Source: Cytophagaceae bacterium
GTDB lineage: Bacteria; Bacteroidota; Bacteroidia; Cytophagales; Cytophagaceae
Reading direction: 5' to 3'
DNA length: 44,927 bases
NCBI GenBank assembly: GCA_025454925.1
Contig: JALONM010000027.1
Location: 1 to 44,927, forward strand
This document shows positions 12,354-37,355 of the stretch, in pieces. Each line of letters opens with the position of its first letter. Position 1 is the stretch's first letter. The position numbers and the translations under genes are program-made. The notes under the pieces were generated by a model. It was not told the origin of the DNA, searched no databases, and worked only from the letters and a program-made list of their open reading frames with translations.

Positions 12354-12998
12354 TTATACCAAACCTTCCTGCACAGCAATGCGTATAAGGCCTGCGGTAT
12401 TTTTTACATTAAGTTTTTCCAAAATACGCTGACGGTGAGTGTCCACAGTGCGCTTGCTTAGATTTAACTCCTGGGCAATTTCTTCGTTCGTTTTTTCACT
12501 GGCAATCATCCGGATGATTTCAATTTCGCGTTCGCTCAATTCGTGGGTATTCCGTTGACGTGTTTGCGGCTGGTTGTTGACATAATGAATCAATTTTACG
12601 GCCACATCATTGCTGTAATAATTTTTTCCGTTACGTACTGTTTCAATAGCGGTAACCAGTTCATCCGGTCCAATATTCTTTAGAACGAATCCTTTAGCAC
12701 CTGCCTGAATAATGTTTTGAATGTAAGTATACTCGTCGTAGTTTGACAGTGCAAGAATTTTTGTTTCTGGAGCTTTTGCAATGATGCGCTTGGTAGCTTC
12801 CAATCCATCGATGTTTGGTAATTGATAATCCATAATCACCACATCGTATTCACCGGATAAAGCCTGATCTACACCATCAAGACCATTATCTGCTTCGTCT
12901 ACTAAAAAATTATATTTCTTCGTCTGCGATTCCAACATGTACCGTATTCCATCGCGTACCATTTTGTGGTCATCCACAATTAGGATTTTGCAATTCAT
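12354..12998 (-). CDS. NarL/FixJ-type response regulator
   Basis: 214 residues from ATG 12998. The receiver domain (1-125) has the acidic pair at DD 9-10, phosphoacceptor Asp57 in VVIMDYQLP, and the lysine in FVLKNIG. The C-terminal LuxR-type helix-turn-helix (about 148-214) has ELSEREIEIIRMIA and the recognition helix SKRTVDTHRQRI. It binds DNA as a dimer after phosphorylation. The frame stays open to an ATG at 13058, but that codon lies inside a consensus -7 box, so 12998 is preferred. It follows the sensor kinase gene by about 140 bases and is its obvious partner. Confidence 0.93.
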   Translation of the reverse strand: MNCKILIVDDHKMVRDGIRYMLESQTKKYNFLVDEADNGLDGVDQALSGEYDVVIMDYQLPNIDGLEATKRIIAKAPETKILALSNYDEYTYIQNIIQAGAKGFVLKNIGPDELVTAIETVRNGKNYYSNDVAVKLIHYVNNQPQTRQRNTHELSEREIEIIRMIASEKTNEEIAQELNLSKRTVDTHRQRILEKLNVKNTAGLIRIAVQEGLV

Positions 12999-13051
12999 AA
13001 TTTTATTTAAACCCAAGAAAAAAGATTCTGTTGCAGGGAGTTGAATGGTAT

Positions 13052-13059
13052 CAAACATA
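13052..13059 (-). promoter_or_regulatory. Candidate -7 box for the response regulator gene
   Basis: The minus strand reads TATGTTTG, an exact match to TAnnTTTG, about 54 bases before ATG 12998. No good TTG is found at the -33 position. If active, the regulator can be transcribed apart from the kinase gene. Confidence 0.35.
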
Positions 13060-13136
13060 ACAAACAGGTTTTAAAGGTAATGAAACTTGTGACCACTTTC
13101 AAAAGAACTCAACCAGCTAAAAATTGACTTTACCGG

Positions 13137-14651
13137 CTAATTAAAGAACGGGATGTCGAATTCGTATACGGTACCGACTCCGACCTCGGAATTATAACGG
13201 AATTCACCATCATAAGGTTGGAGTCTGGTCTTAATATTTGTAAGTCCCATACCTCCGGATTTGGCCTTATCGATTTCAAATCCAATTCCATCGTCTTGAA
13301 GTCTAAAGGTAAGAATTCTTCCTTTTTTATTATAATAACCTTCTACTAAAATATTTTGGGCTTTACCATGCTTTAAGGAGTTATTAATAAACTCCTGTAT
13401 AATCCGATAGATGGTTATTTCAAGATTTTTTTCTAAAGAAGGAAGATGCTCATCTATTCGGAGGTCAAATTTGAGCATTTTATCGAATTCAACTTTTTTG
13501 CAAAGCTCCACCACGGCAAAATAAAGACCTCTATTTTCGAGCGTTCTGGGCATTAGGTTGAAACAAATATTCCGCAATTCAGAAATTACAGCATTCAATC
13601 CATCATTCGATTTGCCAAGTACCTGAAGTATTTGTGCCGGATCTGGATTGGTTTGTTGACGTATGGTATTGATGTAGAATGTAATAGCAGAAAGTTGTTG
13701 CCCCAAGGAATCATGAAGGTCTTTGGCAAAACGCTGACGTTCTTTTTCCTGAGTATCAACGATGGTTTTCAACAGCAATTTTTCCGTTTCTTTCTCTTTG
13801 GTGATGTTTCGGATAATTCCTTGAATTCCACCTCCCGGAATAATATTGGCGCTGATGGTTGTTTCTAAAATTCTTTCTTCATGATCCATCATACGGATGG
13901 AAAGGTTTTGGAAACTCCTGTTTGACTTAAGCAACTCGAAGAAAATGCGCTTATCTTCTACAGAAATAAAAAAATCAGAAATAGAAACTTCAGAAATTTC
14001 ATCTTCGCGCAAACCAAACAAAGCCATTCCGGCAGCATTGATTTCAACTAACTGTCCATTCGACTTAGCAAGAAAAATGGTATCTCCGGAATCGTCAAAT
14101 ATTCGTTTGTATTTTTCCTGAGAAGCTAAAATCTCCGATTCATACTCTTTGATTTTCGTGAGATCCCTGGCGTTGAGCAGGAATTGTTGCTGCTCCTCCT
14201 TTTCAGGGTATAGATTGGTTACGGAAATCAGAACAGGGATTTTTTTCCCCTGAAATCCGAACATAATTTTTTCCGCTTCGTAGAAACCGTTGAGCTTAAC
14301 AAAATGGATAATGTCGGATATAGTTTTTTGTTTTATTTCCAGCCATTGTGAAATGTCTGAATTAAGTATCTGATGCTGTTCAAGACCTGTTTTTTGAAGG
14401 ACCGACTGATTATGATTTTGAATGATTCCGTTTTCATCCAAAACAAATAGCATATCGGTCACTGCGTTGAAGATATTGTTGAAGAAGTTTTTAGAAATCG
14501 TTACTGATTTCAATTCTTCACCAAGCATACCGATACCAGAGATGATGGTATCTATATCATCAAGATTATCGGACACTTCAATTTCAAAGTCGAAATTACC
14601 ACGGGAGTAATTGACTAGAAGGTCGTTTAATTTTTCGAAACGTTCTTCCAA
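13137..14651 (-). CDS. Soluble PAS-domain sensor histidine kinase (HisKA_3 type)
   Basis: 504 residues from TTG 14651, one base after the stop of the STAS-like gene; another in-frame TTG lies at 14684. No membrane segment is visible, so the sensor should be cytosolic. The N-terminal 55 residues look HAMP-like. Two PAS-type domains follow (about 55-170 and 175-285), then HisKA_3 with the phosphorylated histidine in KDLHDSLGQQ (about residue 313), and an HATPase domain with the N box FINNSLKHG and the G box DDGIGFE. It autophosphorylates and should pass the phosphoryl group to the NarL-type regulator encoded next. Confidence 0.92.
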   Translation of the reverse strand: MEERFEKLNDLLVNYSRGNFDFEIEVSDNLDDIDTIISGIGMLGEELKSVTISKNFFNNIFNAVTDMLFVLDENGIIQNHNQSVLQKTGLEQHQILNSDISQWLEIKQKTISDIIHFVKLNGFYEAEKIMFGFQGKKIPVLISVTNLYPEKEEQQQFLLNARDLTKIKEYESEILASQEKYKRIFDDSGDTIFLAKSNGQLVEINAAGMALFGLREDEISEVSISDFFISVEDKRIFFELLKSNRSFQNLSIRMMDHEERILETTISANIIPGGGIQGIIRNITKEKETEKLLLKTIVDTQEKERQRFAKDLHDSLGQQLSAITFYINTIRQQTNPDPAQILQVLGKSNDGLNAVISELRNICFNLMPRTLENRGLYFAVVELCKKVEFDKMLKFDLRIDEHLPSLEKNLEITIYRIIQEFINNSLKHGKAQNILVEGYYNKKGRILTFRLQDDGIGFEIDKAKSGGMGLTNIKTRLQPYDGEFRYNSEVGVGTVYEFDIPFFN

Positions 14652-14652
14652 G

Positions 14653-15036
14653 TTATTCTGCTTTAAACTGTTGCAGCCATTCAATGGCGGCTTGTTCAGA
14701 CGAAAATGCTTTGTTGGGAATTTTGGGTGAAGTGAGTTTTAAAAAAAAATTAATCAACCCAGCAGAAAAATTTGAGTCCATGATAAGAGCACCGGCTAAA
14801 ACACCTTCTAATGCCTCTGGTTGCGAAAAATATTCTCTGGCCTCTTTTGAAACATATTTAATGCCTTTTGCATATCCCATGCCTGGATAAGATTTTCCAT
14901 GAGTTATACGTTTTCTATCCTCTACTATCTGTTTAGCTGTTTCTAAATCAATATTCTTGGGTTTGAAGGTGGTAATCAATACTCCATCTACCAATTTAAA
15001 AAAAGCATGTCTTGTTTCAACTTCTAAATCAATCAT
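14653..15036 (-). CDS. STAS/SpoIIAA-like small protein
   Basis: 127 residues without signal or membrane segment. The alternation of strands and helices (FKLVDGVLITTF, then a helix ETAKQIVEDRKRIT, then strands and a final helix SSEQAAIEWLQQF) and the weak N-terminal similarity suggest the STAS/SpoIIAA-like fold found in many small Bacteroidota proteins. It is the first gene of the kinase-regulator cassette and its stop is one base from the likely kinase start, so the two are translationally coupled. It may tune the kinase by protein contact; this is inference. The divergent start lies 63 bases from the fusion enzyme gene. Confidence 0.7.
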   Translation of the reverse strand: MIDLEVETRHAFFKLVDGVLITTFKPKNIDLETAKQIVEDRKRITHGKSYPGMGYAKGIKYVSKEAREYFSQPEALEGVLAGALIMDSNFSAGLINFFLKLTSPKIPNKAFSSEQAAIEWLQQFKAE

Positions 15037-15046
15037 ATATGGATAA

Positions 15047-15061
15047 AAATACTAAGTATTT
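15047..15061. promoter_or_regulatory. Palindromic candidate operator between the kinase cassette and the fusion enzyme
   Basis: AAATACT and AGTATTT form a perfect inverted repeat around a single A in the middle of the 63-base divergent gap. A twofold site of this size suits a dimeric NarL-type regulator. It could control both directions. AT-rich sequence makes chance palindromes more likely, so this is only a candidate. Confidence 0.4.
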
Positions 15062-15099
15062 AAACGTAAAAAATTTCTTAAAAGAAGGATTTTAATACG

Positions 15100-17592
15100 T
15101 TGAAACTTGACCAAAAGTTATTTTCATTTGATAAGGACCAAAATTTAAATTTTATGCAAAAGCAAATTTCAATCTATGACACAATTGATCAGATAATAAC
15201 TTCTGGAGTAAAAAATGAAATTCTTCATTTAAGTACCGAAGATTCGAATTTAATTGAAAACATAATTACTTTAAACGGAAAATCAATAATTAATTTTGGA
15301 TCATGCAGTTATCTTGGGCTTGAATTTGAAAATCAGCTCATTGAGTCTTCAATCGATGCTATAAAACGATATGGCACACAATTCTCATCATCAAGAGCAT
15401 ATGTATCATTAGGTTTATACGATGAATTAGAAAGCTTGTTTGAAAGAATATTTGGCTATCCAAGCGTTGTAACTCCAACCACTACTTTAGGGCATTTGTC
15501 TGCACTGCCAGTCCTTATCGGATCAAAAGACGCCATTTTAATTGATCATCAAGTACACACCTCTGTTCAAACGGCAGCTAATACTGTAAAAGCAAAAGGA
15601 GTTTTTTGCGAACTTATTAGACATAATCGAGTGGACTTGATCGAGGAAAAAATAATTGAATTAAAACAAAAACATAATCAAATCTGGTATTTGGCAGACG
15701 GAGTTTATTCGATGTATGGGGATTTTGCACCACTTAAGGAGTTAGAATCACTTATGAACAAATATCCTGAATTCAGAGTTTACATTGATGATGCGCACGG
15801 AATGTCCTGGAAAGGAAAAAATGGTAAGGGATACGTTTTAAGCGAAATTGATTTGCACCCACAAATGGTTTTGGCAACTTCTTTAGCCAAAGGTTTTGCC
15901 ACTGGAGGAGCTGTACTTGTTTTTCCATCTAAAGAAATGGCACGAAAAGTACGAACCTGTGGCTCAACGTTAATTACTTCGGGTCCGATGCAACCCGCAA
16001 CATTGGGGGCTGCGATTGCAAGCGCCAAGCTTCACTTAAGCCCTGAATTTGAAGATTATCAGCAAGAGTTAGAAGATAATATTAGGTATTGTCATCTTAT
16101 GCTTAAAAAATATGAATTACCAGATGTCTCAGAAGAGAAAAGTCCAATCTTCTTTGTTGGCGTTAGCTTACCTAAAATAGCAAATACCATTTTAAGGCGG
16201 ATGTTAAAAAGGGGATACTTATTAAATTTAGGTACATTCCCTGCTGTTCCCATTAAAAATACTGGAATTCGGTTCACCATTACTCGTTTGCATACATTTG
16301 AGCAAATTGAATCAATGATTTCGAGTTTGAAACAAGAGTTTACAAAAGCCCTCCAAGAAGAGGATTTCAGTATTGAAAAAATATATTCTGCATTCAAAAT
16401 TAAATCGGATTTACAAGAACAACTAAAATCGGAAAAAAACTTCTCCGACCTAACTCTAAGACACGCAAAATCTATTCGTGAAATAAATAAAGAAGAATGG
16501 GATACAGTTCACGGTCAACAAGGCTCATTTGATTTTAACGGTCTAGCGTTTCTTGAAGATATTTTTAAAAACCAAGAAAGTCTTCCTGAAAACAATTGGG
16601 ACTTTGATTACATAACAATTCTAGATAAATCCAATCAAGTTGTATTGTCTACATTTTTTACAACAACAATTTCCAAAGAAGATATGTTAAGCCCTGCTTC
16701 TGTTTCATTAGAAATTGAAAAACAAAGAATATTAGATCCCTATTTTATGACATCTAAAGTATTAATGATGGGATGCATGATATCTGAAGGAAATCATTTA
16801 TTCCTTGACAAAAACAATAAGAATTGGCAACAGGCTGTTGAAATGATGTTTGATGTAATAAGTAAATGGCAAACAGAGAGAGGAATTCAAAATACTATTT
16901 TACGTGACTTTGCAAAAGGAGATGAAGCGTTTGATAATACTTTTCTGCAAAATGCTTTCATAAGAATTCCAATGCCAAACTTTCATGATATAAAAAACTT
17001 TGAATGGAATGGAATTGAAAATTATCTGTCAAAAAAATCAAAAAACACTAAAGATTATTGGAAAAGATATATACTTAGAAATGAATCAAAATTTGAAGCA
17101 GATTGGTCTAAACGCAATTCAAAACAAAATTTGAAAAAATATTATGAAATGTATCAGGCCGTTAAAAATAAAAATTTAGAAATAAACACATTTGATCTTC
17201 CCTTTGAATTCTTCGAAAAGCTCATAGAAAACCCAAATTGGGATATTTTGGAACTATACTATAAAAATGAAACCAATAATACACTTGAATTAGCTGCTGT
17301 TTCGTTTAATTATTTGGGCGAATGTTATTGTCCGATGATTATTGGTATTAATTACGCCTATAAAGATTTAATGCCTTATAGGCAAGCTGCTTATAAAGTA
17401 CTTCAACGAGCCGGAACCCTAGATAAAAAAACCATTAAGTTTGGTTTCGGAGCAAGCATAGAAAAAAAATATTGGGGTGCAGAGTCCATTGAAACATATG
17501 CATATTTCCAATCCAAAGACAATTTTGCGATCGAATATTTAATGAACTACAGTTCAAATAGTTATAAAATAGAAAATAAAAAAATATCCTAA
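15100..17592 (+). CDS. Bifunctional alpha-oxoamine-synthase-type PLP enzyme fused to a GNAT/FemAB-like acyltransferase
   Basis: 830 residues from TTG 15100, which has AAGGA about 11 bases upstream; ATG 15154 is the alternative. Residues about 20-415 form a fold-type-I PLP enzyme of the alpha-oxoamine synthase group (KBL, BioF, serine palmitoyltransferase, CqsA). The signs are FGSCSYLGLE, SSRAYVSLGLYDELE, the PLP-stacking region DHQVHTSV, DDAHGMSWKG (Asp230/231) and the Schiff-base Lys264 in SLAKGFATGGA. Residues about 430-830 look like one or two GNAT halves of the FemAB/DUF482 kind (EWDTVHGQQGSFDFNGLAFLE; YRQAAYKVLQRAG). The first domain should condense an acyl thioester with an amino acid; the second should transfer an acyl group to an amine. 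Substrates are unknown. It is divergent from a kinase/regulator cassette and is much more AT-rich than its surroundings. Confidence 0.85.
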   Translation: MKLDQKLFSFDKDQNLNFMQKQISIYDTIDQIITSGVKNEILHLSTEDSNLIENIITLNGKSIINFGSCSYLGLEFENQLIESSIDAIKRYGTQFSSSRAYVSLGLYDELESLFERIFGYPSVVTPTTTLGHLSALPVLIGSKDAILIDHQVHTSVQTAANTVKAKGVFCELIRHNRVDLIEEKIIELKQKHNQIWYLADGVYSMYGDFAPLKELESLMNKYPEFRVYIDDAHGMSWKGKNGKGYVLSEIDLHPQMVLATSLAKGFATGGAVLVFPSKEMARKVRTCGSTLITSGPMQPATLGAAIASAKLHLSPEFEDYQQELEDNIRYCHLMLKKYELPDVSEEKSPIFFVGVSLPKIANTILRRMLKRGYLLNLGTFPAVPIKNTGIRFTITRLHTFEQIESMISSLKQEFTKALQEEDFSIEKIYSAFKIKSDLQEQLKSEKNFSDLTLRHAKSIREINKEEWDTVHGQQGSFDFNGLAFLEDIFKNQESLPENNWDFDYITILDKSNQVVLSTFFTTTISKEDMLSPASVSLEIEKQRILDPYFMTSKVLMMGCMISEGNHLFLDKNNKNWQQAVEMMFDVISKWQTERGIQNTILRDFAKGDEAFDNTFLQNAFIRIPMPNFHDIKNFEWNGIENYLSKKSKNTKDYWKRYILRNESKFEADWSKRNSKQNLKKYYEMYQAVKNKNLEINTFDLPFEFFEKLIENPNWDILELYYKNETNNTLELAAVSFNYLGECYCPMIIGINYAYKDLMPYRQAAYKVLQRAGTLDKKTIKFGFGASIEKKYWGAESIETYAYFQSKDNFAIEYLMNYSSNSYKIENKKIS

Positions 17593-18423: not shown

Positions 18424-19227
18424 TTATTCATCCTCCGGCAGCACATATCGGATCGGAATAATAATCGCATTACGCACTGCCTTGCCTTGATAGCGAGCAG
18501 GCTTCCATTTAGGCATAATACCTACTACCCTAGTAGCTTCGGCATTACATTCCTCAACCACCATTCCTTTTTTAATTTTGATCCCTGAAATTGAGCCATC
18601 TTTTTCCACTACAAACGAAACGTATACAGTCCCCTCTGCGCCCATTTTAATGGCTTTATTGGGATAACGAAGGTGTTTGCTCAGGAAGGAAATAAGGGCA
18701 TCCTCCCCTCCCACAAATTCCGGATCTTCATCTACAATTTCCAGGATGTCGTTATTTTCTTCACCCAAAGGATCTTTGCCATTTCCATCGGCCGGTGGCA
18801 ATTCTCCTTCCACGCCGTCTTGAGTATCATTCCCAGGATTGATATTTTTCATATCCTCTTGTTTAGGAGGTAATTCTTCTTTAACTACGTCCTTATCCTT
18901 AACAATCTTAGGTGGTACATACTTAATCATTTTCACCTTCGGAGGATCTACTTTCAGTGGTGGTGGCTCCGGCTTTTTAGTATCCAGGGCTACATCTACG
19001 ATCTGTTCTATTTTCTTTTTCCTTTTAGGAACCTTTACCTCTTCTGCTGGCTTTTTTATGTACCAAGAGAGTAAGAACGACCCTACAACGTATACCACCA
19101 AAAGTAGCCCGGCCAAAATAAGCAGGCGAAGCCAATATGTTTCTCTTAACTCGTAGGCACCAAAACTTTTGTTTTTGTTCTCAAAAACAAAATCATCGTA
19201 TTCAAACTTTTCGTAACTCGTTTCCAT
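18424..19227 (-). CDS. tonB: Energy transducer TonB
   Basis: 267 residues. A cytosolic N-terminus with FVFENKNKSFGAYELR, typical of Bacteroidota TonB, precedes one membrane segment (about 33-53). A proline/lysine-rich periplasmic spacer with repeated KPEPPP- and PPK-type stretches follows (about 60-130). The TonB C-terminal domain (about 175-265) has the features LRYPNKAIKMGAEGTVYVSF and MPKWKPARYQGKAV. It transmits proton-motive force to outer membrane receptors. It is the last gene of its operon, nine bases after the second exbD, with a strong terminator behind it. Confidence 0.95.
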   Translation of the reverse strand: METSYEKFEYDDFVFENKNKSFGAYELRETYWLRLLILAGLLLVVYVVGSFLLSWYIKKPAEEVKVPKRKKKIEQIVDVALDTKKPEPPPLKVDPPKVKMIKYVPPKIVKDKDVVKEELPPKQEDMKNINPGNDTQDGVEGELPPADGNGKDPLGEENNDILEIVDEDPEFVGGEDALISFLSKHLRYPNKAIKMGAEGTVYVSFVVEKDGSISGIKIKKGMVVEECNAEATRVVGIMPKWKPARYQGKAVRNAIIIPIRYVLPEDE

Positions 19228-19236
19228 GGCTCGTTC

Positions 19237-19764
19237 TTATGGATTTTGAGGAATAAGACCTTCTTTTTGCCAAACCAATTGCATCTCCTGAGGAGTAATG
19301 TCGAGAATAGCAAACCTGGATTCTGTTAGATTTAATTCATCTACCATATCTACCATATTTTTATAACTCGATTTGGGCATTGGCTTTACCACGATGGTAA
19401 ACTTTCCCGGATGTAATTTATTACCCTCATTAAACAAAGCCCTTGCGCCTTTTGCCCCATAGTTAGTAACAAAAAGCTCCGGTTTTTCTATGCTGGTGTA
19501 ATAATAAAGTTTATTTTTTTCTCCTATTATCAAAGTCATGGATTCCGACTCTTTTAATTTAGGAGGATCCTGCTTGTTGTTTTTATCAGGCATGTTTAGT
19601 TGCATTGCCTGAGGCTTACTCAGGGTGGTAGCCAGCATAAAGAACGTAATCAGCAAAAAAGCTAAATCCACCATCGGTGTCATGTCGACCTTAGTAGAGG
19701 CTTTTTTACTGCGGACTTTACCGCCTTTTTTTCCACCGCCCTGACTTGAATCTATTTCTGCCAT
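19237..19764 (-). CDS. exbD: ExbD-type biopolymer transport protein (second copy)
   Basis: 175 residues. The N-terminus is rich in lysine and glycine, followed by VDMTPMVDLAFLLITFFML, the single membrane helix with the conserved proton-carrying aspartate. The periplasmic domain follows. It forms the proton channel with the ExbB/TolQ-like protein and works with TonB. It lies 11 bases after the first exbD gene. Confidence 0.93.
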   Translation of the reverse strand: MAEIDSSQGGGKKGGKVRSKKASTKVDMTPMVDLAFLLITFFMLATTLSKPQAMQLNMPDKNNKQDPPKLKESESMTLIIGEKNKLYYYTSIEKPELFVTNYGAKGARALFNEGNKLHPGKFTIVVKPMPKSSYKNMVDMVDELNLTESRFAILDITPQEMQLVWQKEGLIPQNP

Positions 19765-19775
19765 GGTAGTATCGA

Positions 19776-20366
19776 TTATTGTTCAAGACTGGTAATCAGA
19801 CTGAACTTATTATACCTTAATTCCTGCAGGCTACGAATCACTTTATTATAATGCTCGTAATCTGTTTTTTGATCTGCTTTGATTCCAAATTTATAATTCG
19901 GATTGGTCGATTTCGCATACGTTATCCAATACTGAAGCTCGTTGTTGGCAGAGTCAGCCGGAATTCCTTCCTGCAGAAAATCACCACGCTCTTCAGGACT
20001 CAAAGACGCATATTCTTTTAAATCTTCCACAGGCATTCCTATGGTTTCTTCAGAAGCAAGTGCATCTAAGTCATCCGCGCTCAATCCGATTTTTTTGGAT
20101 TCATTCAATTGCTTTAGCACTTCTTTTCTGTTCGCAAACTCCGACAATCCGAAAAATATTCTTCCGTCAGGAGCCAAAGTAATTCGAATCAGACCTTGCT
20201 CCGGAACTTTTTCGGCAGGCTGTGAAGAAGGTATTTCTACTTGCACCGGTTCTGCTGCCTTCATTTTGGCAGTGAGAATGAAAAAGGTGAGAAGTAAAAA
20301 CGCCATATCGCACATGGCTGTCATGTCCAGCGAAATACTTTTTTTATTGATGCCTTTCTTAGCCAT
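19776..20366 (-). CDS. exbD: ExbD-type biopolymer transport protein (first copy, with an insertion)
   Basis: 196 residues from ATG 20366; a TTG three codons upstream is less likely. The membrane helix SLDMTAMCDMAFLLLTFFIL carries the conserved aspartate. The periplasmic part is about 50 residues longer than usual for ExbD, with a charged insertion (about 85-150) between IFFGLSEFANRKEVL and the final KFGIKADQKTDYEHY segment. It probably forms a mixed complex with the second copy. Confidence 0.92.
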   Translation of the reverse strand: MAKKGINKKSISLDMTAMCDMAFLLLTFFILTAKMKAAEPVQVEIPSSQPAEKVPEQGLIRITLAPDGRIFFGLSEFANRKEVLKQLNESKKIGLSADDLDALASEETIGMPVEDLKEYASLSPEERGDFLQEGIPADSANNELQYWITYAKSTNPNYKFGIKADQKTDYEHYNKVIRSLQELRYNKFSLITSLEQ

Positions 20367-20387
20367 ATTCCACAAATTCAGATAAAA

Positions 20388-21197
20388 TTATTTCGCACTG
20401 GCTTGCATGCTGTGCTGTATGCTAAGCGCTACTTCGTCGATGCTATAGGTAAGCTCATCAATTTTACTGGTAAAGAAGTTGTATGCAACGATCGCCACAG
20501 CGGAAGTACCGATACCCAAAGCGGTATTGATAAGTGCTTCCGAAATACCCATCGCTAAAGCCGAAGGATCCGGTGATCCGTGTGCTGCCAGGGCACCAAA
20601 CGCTTTGATCATACCAATTACGGTTCCTAACAAACCTACCAATGTAGATACTGAAGCCATGGTAGCAAGAATGGTTAGGTTTTTCTCCATCATGGGAAGT
20701 TCCAAGGCGGTAGCTTCTTCTGTTTCTTTTTTCAACAATTCCAATTTGTGATCTTTACTTAAACCACCATCGTTGATAATTGCTTTGTAGCGATTCAACA
20801 CCTCATAACAAACATTTCCTACTGAACCGCGCTGCTTGGCTGCATGAGTAATGGCATCGTCGATGTTATTACCAGAAAGGGACACTTTCATATTGCGAAT
20901 AAAAGATACTAATGAACCACTCCCATAAGCCTTGGTGATGGCGATAGCACGTTCTACAGAAAAAATCAATACGATTACGGCAAACGACATTAGAAATGGC
21001 ACGATTACTCCACCTAAAAACATAGTACCCATCACATCGCCCGGCTCATTAATTTCATAATTGCCTTTGTCGGTAACATGTACATGTGATTTAAATACCG
21101 TCCAGAATACCAGGTTGCAAACAACGATGGCTGCAACAATGGCCAGCACGGTGAATAAAGAATTAAACTTGCTTGAAGATGATTTCTGAAGATCCAT
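20388..21197 (-). CDS. exbB: MotA/TolQ/ExbB proton channel family protein
   Basis: 269 residues. The first membrane segment lies at about 12-33, the second at about 58-82, and the conserved pair of helices at about 165-240, with LATMASVSTLVGLLGTVIGMI and the ALINTALGIGTSAV motif. It is the proton channel that powers TonB. It is the first gene of the operon; a 517-base intergenic region with the promoter lies upstream. Confidence 0.94.
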   Translation of the reverse strand: MDLQKSSSSKFNSLFTVLAIVAAIVVCNLVFWTVFKSHVHVTDKGNYEINEPGDVMGTMFLGGVIVPFLMSFAVIVLIFSVERAIAITKAYGSGSLVSFIRNMKVSLSGNNIDDAITHAAKQRGSVGNVCYEVLNRYKAIINDGGLSKDHKLELLKKETEEATALELPMMEKNLTILATMASVSTLVGLLGTVIGMIKAFGALAAHGSPDPSALAMGISEALINTALGIGTSAVAIVAYNFFTSKIDELTYSIDEVALSIQHSMQASAK

Positions 21198-36103: not shown

Positions 36104-37355
36104 ATTCTTTTATTTTTCGATACAGTGTGCGTTCAGAAATTCCAAGATCCTGTGCCGCATACTTTCGTTTGTTGTTATTTTTCCGGAGCGCTTTCACAAT
36201 CATTTCTTTTTCCTTTTCATTGAGTGAAAGACTCTCCTGTTCTTCTTCAATTTCAATATCGTGCACTACCTGGTCTTTATCCTCCAGAATAATGGTAGGT
36301 GCCGAATTCTTTTCCTGAACGGTACTGGGTAAATATACCGATTCTTCCTCTTTATCCAGATCAAGGTTGCTGAATAATTCCTTGTGCTTGTTCAATACCT
36401 GATGGCCATAGTTTTCGTTCTGCAGCACCTCATGCACCAACTTTTTCAATTCATTCATATCCTTTTTCATGTCAAAAAGGATCTTGTATAGAATTTCTCG
36501 TTCAGAAATGTCTTCGTTATTTCCTTTATCTTTTAAGACCGCTGGCAGGTTCGACATTTTTGAATCGGGTAAATAATGCGCCAGCGCATCTTTGCTCAAC
36601 ACCCGTTCTTGTTCGAGCACGGAAATTTGTTCTGCCAGGTTTTTCAACTGACGGATATTGCCTGGGAAACGAAACCTCAGCAACAAGTCTCGGGCCTCAT
36701 CGCTAAGCCTTATGGGCTGTACTTTATACCGATCTGCAAAATCTGCTGCGAATTTCCGGAATAATAAATCTATATCATTCCCCCGCTCGCGCAAGGGTGG
36801 CACATAAATAGGCACCGTGTTTAAGCGGTAATATAAATCTTCTCTGAATTTGCCACGCTGCACAGCTTCGTATAAATTGACATTGGTAGCAGCAATCACA
36901 CGCACATCGGTTTTTTGGACTTTGGACGAACCAACCCGGATAAACTCCTTGTTCTCCAAAACACGAAGCAATCGGGCTTGGGTTCCCAGAGGCATCTCCC
37001 CTATTTCATCCAAAAAAATAGTCCCTCCATCGGTTTCCTCGAAATATCCTTTCCTGGATTCATGCGCTCCGGTAAACGATCCTTTTTCATGACCGAATAA
37101 TTCCGAATCTATGGTACCTTCCGGAATGGCACCGCAGTTAATTGCGATAAACTTACCATGCTTTCTGGCGCTGAGAGAATGAATAATTTTGGAAAATGAT
37201 TCTTTCCCACTCCCACTTTCTCCGGTAATCAAAACGGTCATGTCCGTCGCTGCAACCTGCATTGCCACCTGTATGGCGTGATTCAGAGCAGGCGCATTGC
37301 CAATGATACCAAACCGTTGTTTAATACTTTGTATTTCCTGATTCAAATTTGACAT
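36090..37355 (-). CDS. Sigma-54 dependent transcriptional activator without receiver domain
   Basis: 421 residues. The AAA+ domain starts almost at the N-terminus, with the Walker A motif GESGSGKE (45-52), the sigma-54 contact loop as GSFTGA (92-97) instead of GAFTGA, and the Walker B motif GGTIFLDEIGE (110-120). A helical linker rich in charged residues follows (about 265-375). A Fis-type helix-turn-helix (about 385-421, KRKYAAQDLGISERTLYRKI) ends the protein. There is no N-terminal sensor domain, so control should come from another protein or from expression. It leads the operon of lptE, the TPR gene and secG. Confidence 0.92.
   Translation of the reverse strand: MSNLNQEIQSIKQRFGIIGNAPALNHAIQVAMQVAATDMTVLITGESGSGKESFSKIIHSLSARKHGKFIAINCGAIPEGTIDSELFGHEKGSFTGAHESRKGYFEETDGGTIFLDEIGEMPLGTQARLLRVLENKEFIRVGSSKVQKTDVRVIAATNVNLYEAVQRGKFREDLYYRLNTVPIYVPPLRERGNDIDLLFRKFAADFADRYKVQPIRLSDEARDLLLRFRFPGNIRQLKNLAEQISVLEQERVLSKDALAHYLPDSKMSNLPAVLKDKGNNEDISEREILYKILFDMKKDMNELKKLVHEVLQNENYGHQVLNKHKELFSNLDLDKEEESVYLPSTVQEKNSAPTIILEDKDQVVHDIEIEEEQESLSLNEKEKEMIVKALRKNNNKRKYAAQDLGISERTLYRKIKEYGLE

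Follow-up and report, generated by a model that had tools for sequence, protein, structure and literature searches.

A stretch of 44,927 nucleotides, hereafter the window, was analysed; it comprises positions 1 to 44,927 of contig JALONM010000027.1 of a Cytophagaceae bacterium (assembly GCA_025454925.1, a genome of 4.52 Mb). Between positions 12354 and 17592 it carries a gene for a predicted fusion enzyme, in which a synthase of the alpha-oxoamine-synthase type is joined to a double GNAT domain, and opposite to it a cassette of three genes encoding a DUF7793 protein, a PAS histidine kinase and a response regulator (RR). The linkage of the fusion to DUF7793 is conserved among relatives far above chance, and the module as a whole is conserved and probably autoregulated. 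The enzyme probably makes an unusual lipid-like molecule, and the presence of a small carrier-like protein and sensor genes beside it in many bacteria suggests that the cells monitor or tightly control this product.

A preliminary description of the window had proposed this layout of a STAS-like protein, a PAS kinase and a NarL-type regulator facing the fusion. All four open reading frames (ORFs) were found at the coordinates it had given, and the domain types returned by Pfam and NCBIfam agree with those it had named:

12354..13058, minus strand: NarL/LuxR-type RR with REC and GerE helix-turn-helix (HTH) domains (PF00072, E 1.7e-27; PF00196, E 1.9e-19); start likely near 12998
13137..14684, minus strand: histidine kinase, PAS-PAS-HisKA_3-HATPase by Pfam, with the H-box KDLHDSLGQQL present
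14653..15036, minus strand: DUF7793 (PF25056, E 2.9e-32) protein, the "STAS-like" gene
15037..15153, no strand: divergent intergenic region, given a fusion start at ATG 15154 (from the N-termini of homologues and the sequence)
15056..15067, plus strand: candidate operator GTATTTAAACGT, consensus GTATTTATACG, inside the divergent promoter (from a held-out test and a weight matrix)
15100..17592, plus strand: fusion enzyme, with an oxoamine-synthase domain at residues 62-408 (15283-16323) and a double GNAT at about residues 432-830 (16393-17589)

The kinase and DUF7793 ORFs share 32 nt. The divergence of 63 bases given in the preliminary description holds as the gap counted from TTG 15100, but the true start of the fusion is more likely to be ATG 15154, because most homologues begin 6-9 residues ahead of the conserved position of Thr25 in the window protein; the gap would then be 117 bp.

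Linkage of the fusion to DUF7793 and sensor genes

To assess the neighbourhood of the fusion, 395 genomes sampled evenly across the class, among them the host genome, were searched with a profile. At most four candidates were scored per genome, and further fusions may be missed. Strong fusion matches were obtained in 34 of the 395 genomes, and the listed strong matches outside the host genome make up the 40 class loci considered here (among them L224, which is split in two frames). DUF7793 lies within 1.5 kb of the fusion in 36 of the 40. It is near none of the 41 control loci, which comprise 21 other oxoamine synthases, viewed with flanks of at most 1.5 kb, and 20 GNAT relatives that stand alone, viewed with flanks of at most about 5 kb; the linkage (36/40 against 0/41) is far above chance. 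The four loci without DUF7793 comprise two that are cut by contig ends (L198, L210) and two that adjoin kinase-type genes (L201, L221). Within 4 kb of the fusion, a protein of kinase, PAS or HATPase type is encoded in 37/40 loci, a kinase-type protein of more than 330 residues with a kinase core in 28/40 and a protein of 170-290 residues matching the profile of the cassette regulator in 18/40. The exact order of the window, with the fusion divergent from DUF7793, kinase and regulator, was counted by reading in 13/40. The partner most closely tied to the fusion is DUF7793. A neighbourhood search of this kind had been proposed in the preliminary description, and it finds the linkage conserved.

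A second, named set of 80 loci was ordered by similarity to the window protein, which biases it, and it has contigs in common with the class sample; the rates given above are therefore those of the class sample. Among the named loci, the DUF7793 cluster and the kinase/PAS cluster each occur in 57 of the 80, and besides these, the fusion and the RR no gene cluster exceeds nine loci. The nearest kin of the window (L049, L050, L051) have the same cassette, and a quick tree of 84 fusions, in which the window and four relatives were labelled by hand, groups the window with these three and with L054 (SH-aLRT 99). Gene order is mostly divergent. Co-directional arrangements are found in the class loci L199, L209, L218 and L220, and L054 (gammaproteobacterial), L058 and L092 have a co-directional run of fusion, DUF7793, kinase and regulator, so the linkage survives rearrangement. 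Furthermore, protein distances of fusion and DUF7793 correlate across 74 loci (r = 0.66), as do those of fusion and kinase core across 46 loci (r = 0.53); neither value was reached in any of 2000 permutations, with fusions collapsed at 85% identity and species descent uncorrected.

The host genome has a second fusion on a 10.8-kb contig (39% identical by search, 38% by alignment), accompanied by two divergent DUF7793 genes. A one-off linkage was considered and rejected in view of this paralogue, the named set and the class loci. At an Imperialibacter locus (L074), two convergent fusions enclose two kinase-type genes, with DUF7793 on both outer sides.

Domains and folds of the encoded proteins

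The N-terminal half of the fusion matches the alpha-oxoamine-synthase type of pyridoxal phosphate (PLP) enzymes (PF00155, E 5.7e-22), and its sequence places it in the alpha-oxoamine synthase superfamily of fold-type I PLP enzymes. Across 90 full-length rows (some contigs being entered twice), H153, D230, H233 and K264 are each kept in at least 95%, residues that we take to supply the catalytic Lys, the pyridine-ring Asp and a DxxH-type motif. The NCBIfam equivalog models score the fusion far under their cut-offs, including the Bacteroidota serine palmitoyltransferase model NF047600 (145.8 bits, cut-off 640) and the alpha-hydroxyketone (AHK) synthase model PRK07179 (60.9 bits, cut-off 428); the best NCBIfam model, PRK07505, reaches 253 bits, under its cut-off of 342. 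The closest solved structures are serine palmitoyltransferases and oxononanoate synthases.

Taken alone, the C-terminal half of the window protein gives a weak Pfam match, and no significant match came from searching PDB sequences with a profile of this half. Its relatives match PF13480 in 46/57 and PF04339 in 27/57 cases at E <= 0.1. The predicted model (predicted local distance difference test score, pLDDT, 92.7) has a double (tandem) GNAT fold. It aligns with FemX 6snr (VIA-align Z 21.5, root-mean-square deviation (rmsd) 4.9, 304 residues), FemA 1lrz (Z 20.8) and N-myristoyltransferases (NMT; Z about 16-17), and Foldseek agrees. By this model, the half belongs to the FemX/NMT-like double GNAT class, with the tandem fold across the domain. 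The likeness to FemX/FemA and NMT covers most of the domain, whereas identity in the matched rows is 5-12% and the window domain differs from these proteins in being fused to a PLP enzyme. The view of the protein as an oxoamine-synthase-type PLP enzyme joined to a GNAT/FemAB-like domain, and of the kinase beside it as membrane-free, is thus upheld; in a crude scan, the highest mean hydropathy of the kinase over 19 residues was 0.96, and no transmembrane stretch is evident. Neighbouring kinases in the class loci mostly have no strongly hydrophobic stretch either, and some in L218 and L221 have one.

The two halves of the fusion also have relatives apart from each other. None of 20 stand-alone GNAT relatives fetched, out of many listed, adjoins an oxoamine synthase by profiles, and in plasmid relatives among the rows listed the synthase half alone is covered. 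One of these settings is a Rhizobium leguminosarum plasmid (L246, 5074-7125), where a single-domain synthase relative lies directly 3' of an annotated response regulator. In a relative of the same family (L047, 8074-10786), the oxoamine-synthase domain stands alone (428 aa). Its gene still diverges from DUF7793 and converges with a gene of 213 aa whose PAS-type match is weak; the GNAT half is therefore dispensable in one lineage. In L043 and L046 (a Sporocytophaga genome) and in L224 (another genome of the class), the fusion is split over two reading frames.

The DUF7793 model (pLDDT 95.0) aligns with the STAS domain structure 4xs5 (Z 12.1, rmsd 2.8, 111 residues) and with the SpoIIAA-like 2q3l (Z 11.9), which assigns the protein a predicted STAS/SpoIIAA-like fold. 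In keeping with these structures, 26 of 57 DUF7793 members match PF11964 weakly (E <= 0.1); unlike them, DUF7793 forms its own Pfam family and has an enzyme and a PAS sensor or kinase as linked partners. A phospho-switch anti-anti-sigma factor of the SpoIIAA/RsbV kind would have a conserved phosphorylatable Ser/Thr ahead of helix alpha2; between residues 57 and 64 of DUF7793, no position holds Ser/Thr in more than 29 of the 57 members, the SpoIIAA serine being unmapped structurally. Some loci hold up to four DUF7793 copies. DUF7793 also occurs outside fusion loci, both in the host genome and in related genomes. On one host contig (C124, L184; 3-1439), the fourth DUF7793 gene of the genome adjoins a gene for a CdaA-type di-adenylate cyclase (PF02457, PF19293). 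At 20 loci with unlinked DUF7793 genes, the neighbours were of mixed function among the few searched.

A candidate operator in the shared promoter

The shared promoter was examined with a Gibbs sampler in 13 non-redundant divergent regions having the full DUF7793-kinase-regulator cassette. Near-identical fusions were collapsed at 80% identity, coding ends were trimmed and regions shorter than 40 bp were then dropped; L203 was not retained in this step although it has the exact cassette, and the gap of L191 is too short for the motif test. A palindrome-like site with the consensus GTATTTATACG was recovered, scoring 190.2 against 163.5 +/- 5.0 (maximum 170.1) in 12 Markov nulls. In a held-out test, 12 of the 13 regions beat their nulls at p <= 0.05 (window 0/400; L217 0.05), the other being L051 (0.22). 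An earlier sampler run that included coding ends gave the site in the group with the RR (206.2 against 162.5-173.2 in 6 nulls) and start codons in the other group. In 45 regions without a cassette RR, no common motif was found (435.3 against 423.7 +/- 13.1 in 4 nulls). The motif emerged with the Gibbs sampler only; a 7-mer count of the intergenic regions gave nothing above shuffles (top count 9; null mean 8.15, maximum 11).

A weight matrix built from the 12 other loci ranks 15056-15067 as the top site of the whole window (14.87), followed by 14.29 at 36817; those 12 matrix sites came from the run including the window, and the held-out test is the stricter one. Applied to the 45 regions without a cassette RR, the matrix finds a site at p <= 0.05 in three, two of which (L190, L192) do carry a regulator and kinase-type genes at another place in the locus. 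Among 13 further loci, six have the site (L067, L199, L092, L190, L192, L198), although L067 and L199 look like one contig. Read backwards as a control, the operator pattern has two hits in the host genome. Taken together, the motif gives in-silico support to an action of the adjacent regulator at the shared promoter through the candidate operator.

Proposed mechanism and alternatives

We read the locus as a module that would sense product or flux inside the cell, built around a bifunctional synthase of N-acyl-aminoketones (ceramide-like). In this mechanism, the synthase domain would join an amino acid and an acyl thioester by condensation into an alpha-aminoketone, and the GNAT domain would acylate or aminoacylate the new amine to a hydrophobic product resembling a ceramide or an N-acyl-aminoketone. 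DUF7793 may bind this product, or an acyl precursor, in the cytosol and relay it to the PAS kinase, and the regulator would then act at the divergent promoter, tuning synthase and sensor together. The idea of a carrier derives from the SpoIIAA-like structures and the weak PF11964 matches: in the available part of PMC2954212, 2q3l and 2ook, of the SpoIIAA-like/CRAL-TRIO kind, are proposed to carry hydrophobic compounds and 2q3l has a deep nonpolar cavity. That these parts form one conserved regulatory-metabolic module, in which a bifunctional synthase, a DUF7793 relay, a PAS kinase and feedback by the regulator at the divergent promoter act together, is quite possible, and we hold it tentatively. 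A broader version is unlikely: a hitherto undescribed intracellular lipid-signal system of Bacteroidota, spread to other phyla, with a single bifunctional enzyme for N-acyl or N-aminoacyl alpha-aminoketones, DUF7793 as a STAS/CRAL-TRIO-like cytosolic receptor, a soluble PAS kinase with LuxR feedback and genome paralogues as parallel channels.

Several observations weigh against the sensing module. DUF7793 lies within 2.5 kb of 60 of the 84 fusions in the tree and not within that range of the other 24, of which one sits at the edge of its contig. Seventeen of these 24 group in one clade (Aureispira, Tenacibaculum, Kordia, a cyanobacterium, gammaproteobacteria and others) in which a kinase is near in 1/17, and thus the enzyme can exist without the module. 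Kinase-type neighbours without DUF7793 are found in L053 and L060 (two fusions of one UBA8530 cyanobacterial genome) and in L077. A PAS protein but no kinase-type protein of more than 330 residues occurs in 9/40 class loci, and the second fusion of the host genome is followed by a gene that matches PAS weakly, with no kinase on its contig. In the preliminary description, wide occurrence of the fusion without a kinase cassette had been named as a finding that would speak against its interpretation; this does not hold for most of the family (37/40), but the clade of 17, save one row, and the second host copy have no kinase near, and that interpretation is supported in part. Of the 20 DUF7793 loci far from fusions, only 4 encode a PAS protein or a kinase at 1.5 kb or less. 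The candidate operator was not found at seven of the 13 further loci (L054, L057, L058, L066, L087, L201, L203) and, L203 having the exact cassette, is not universal. Elsewhere in the host genome its pattern marks no coherent gene set (6 hits including the window, at mixed positions).

The fusion may instead be a regulated membrane-lipid enzyme making a structural sphingolipid or capnine-like lipid, with a PAS kinase that senses redox, oxygen or another cytosolic cue rather than the product. Redox state and small ligands are common cues for PAS domains, and the best structural matches of the synthase half (serine palmitoyltransferases and oxononanoate synthases) fit this explanation. So do the neighbours in the clade without DUF7793, which hint at acyl-lipid-type chemistry. 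In a Xenococcaceae cyanobacterium (L061, 5973-12475), the fusion is preceded by an AMP-binding enzyme, which we read from its sequence as fatty-acyl-AMP-ligase-like, an acyl carrier protein (ACP) and a 348-aa protein with no Pfam or NCBIfam match, and at two loci of Aureispira and one of Tenacibaculum a short-chain dehydrogenase lies near the fusion. However, no lipid gene recurs beside the fusion (no other cluster exceeds 9 of the 80 named loci), and the fusion is an accessory, because strong matches occur in 34/395 class genomes and the host genome has two other oxoamine-synthase-type genes. On balance, this explanation is possible, if somewhat unlikely. The chemistry expected of the first half would be common to sphingolipid and sulfonolipid pathways. 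Serine palmitoyltransferase or cysteate fatty acyltransferase together with CerS would follow the same two-step logic of condensation and N-acylation that is proposed here for one chain. Caulobacter CC_1154, likened here by description, is the proposed N-acyltransferase CerS in the available part of PMC11324152, and no N-acyltransferase is named in the available part of PMC11211663. The window differs from these pathways in its fused domains, its serine palmitoyltransferase score under the cut-off and the lack of a recurrent reductase or ACP in the module loci.

DUF7793 may also act directly on the enzyme as a docking, acyl-carrier or allosteric subunit, leaving kinase and regulator to set expression only. 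Its proximity to the fusion would suit such a partner (36/40, compared with 28/40 for kinase-type proteins and 18/40 for the cassette RR), as would the correlation of its distances with the fusion distances (r 0.66) and the structure 3ny7, by title the STAS domain of YchM solved bound to ACP. Because it is also found apart from fusions, in one case next to a CdaA-type gene of the host genome, it is not only an enzyme subunit, and the multiple copies in some loci also count against this explanation, which we regard as distinctly unlikely. A true AHK quorum-sensing system homologous to CqsA/CqsS or LqsA/LqsS/LqsR is very improbable. The available part of PMC3376566 describes an oxoamine synthase gene beside a kinase and a regulator in these systems, and the parallel drawn in the preliminary description stands as an analogy of layout, a PLP enzyme of this type being encoded beside a histidine kinase and a regulator. 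It does not extend to membership: the window enzyme is fused to a double GNAT and scores far under the AHK cut-off, its kinase has no evident transmembrane stretch, unlike the transmembrane CqsS and LqsS, and its RR has a GerE/LuxR HTH, whereas the output part of LqsR matches no known domain (PMC3376566, available part). The cassette also adds a STAS-fold partner. Family membership was excluded by enzyme score, kinase type and regulator type. The same part of that source calls AHK systems apparently restricted to aquatic gammaproteobacteria and also lists lqsA/lqsS-like clusters in other environmental bacteria.

Compared with AHK cassettes, the enzyme here has a different architecture, and in most loci a STAS-fold protein and a PAS sensor or kinase accompany it. 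In the literature searched (titles and abstract openings, among the matches listed), nothing was found that describes the fusion together with DUF7793 and a kinase, and the term DUF7793 does not occur. DUF7793 gains a first testable role and an operator is proposed. The analysis also prompts the question which lipid-like product these bacteria would be monitoring from within the cell.

Elsewhere in the window, at 18424-21197 on the minus strand, a run of ORFs resembles TonB, two ExbD-type proteins and ExbB, as judged by sequence alone.

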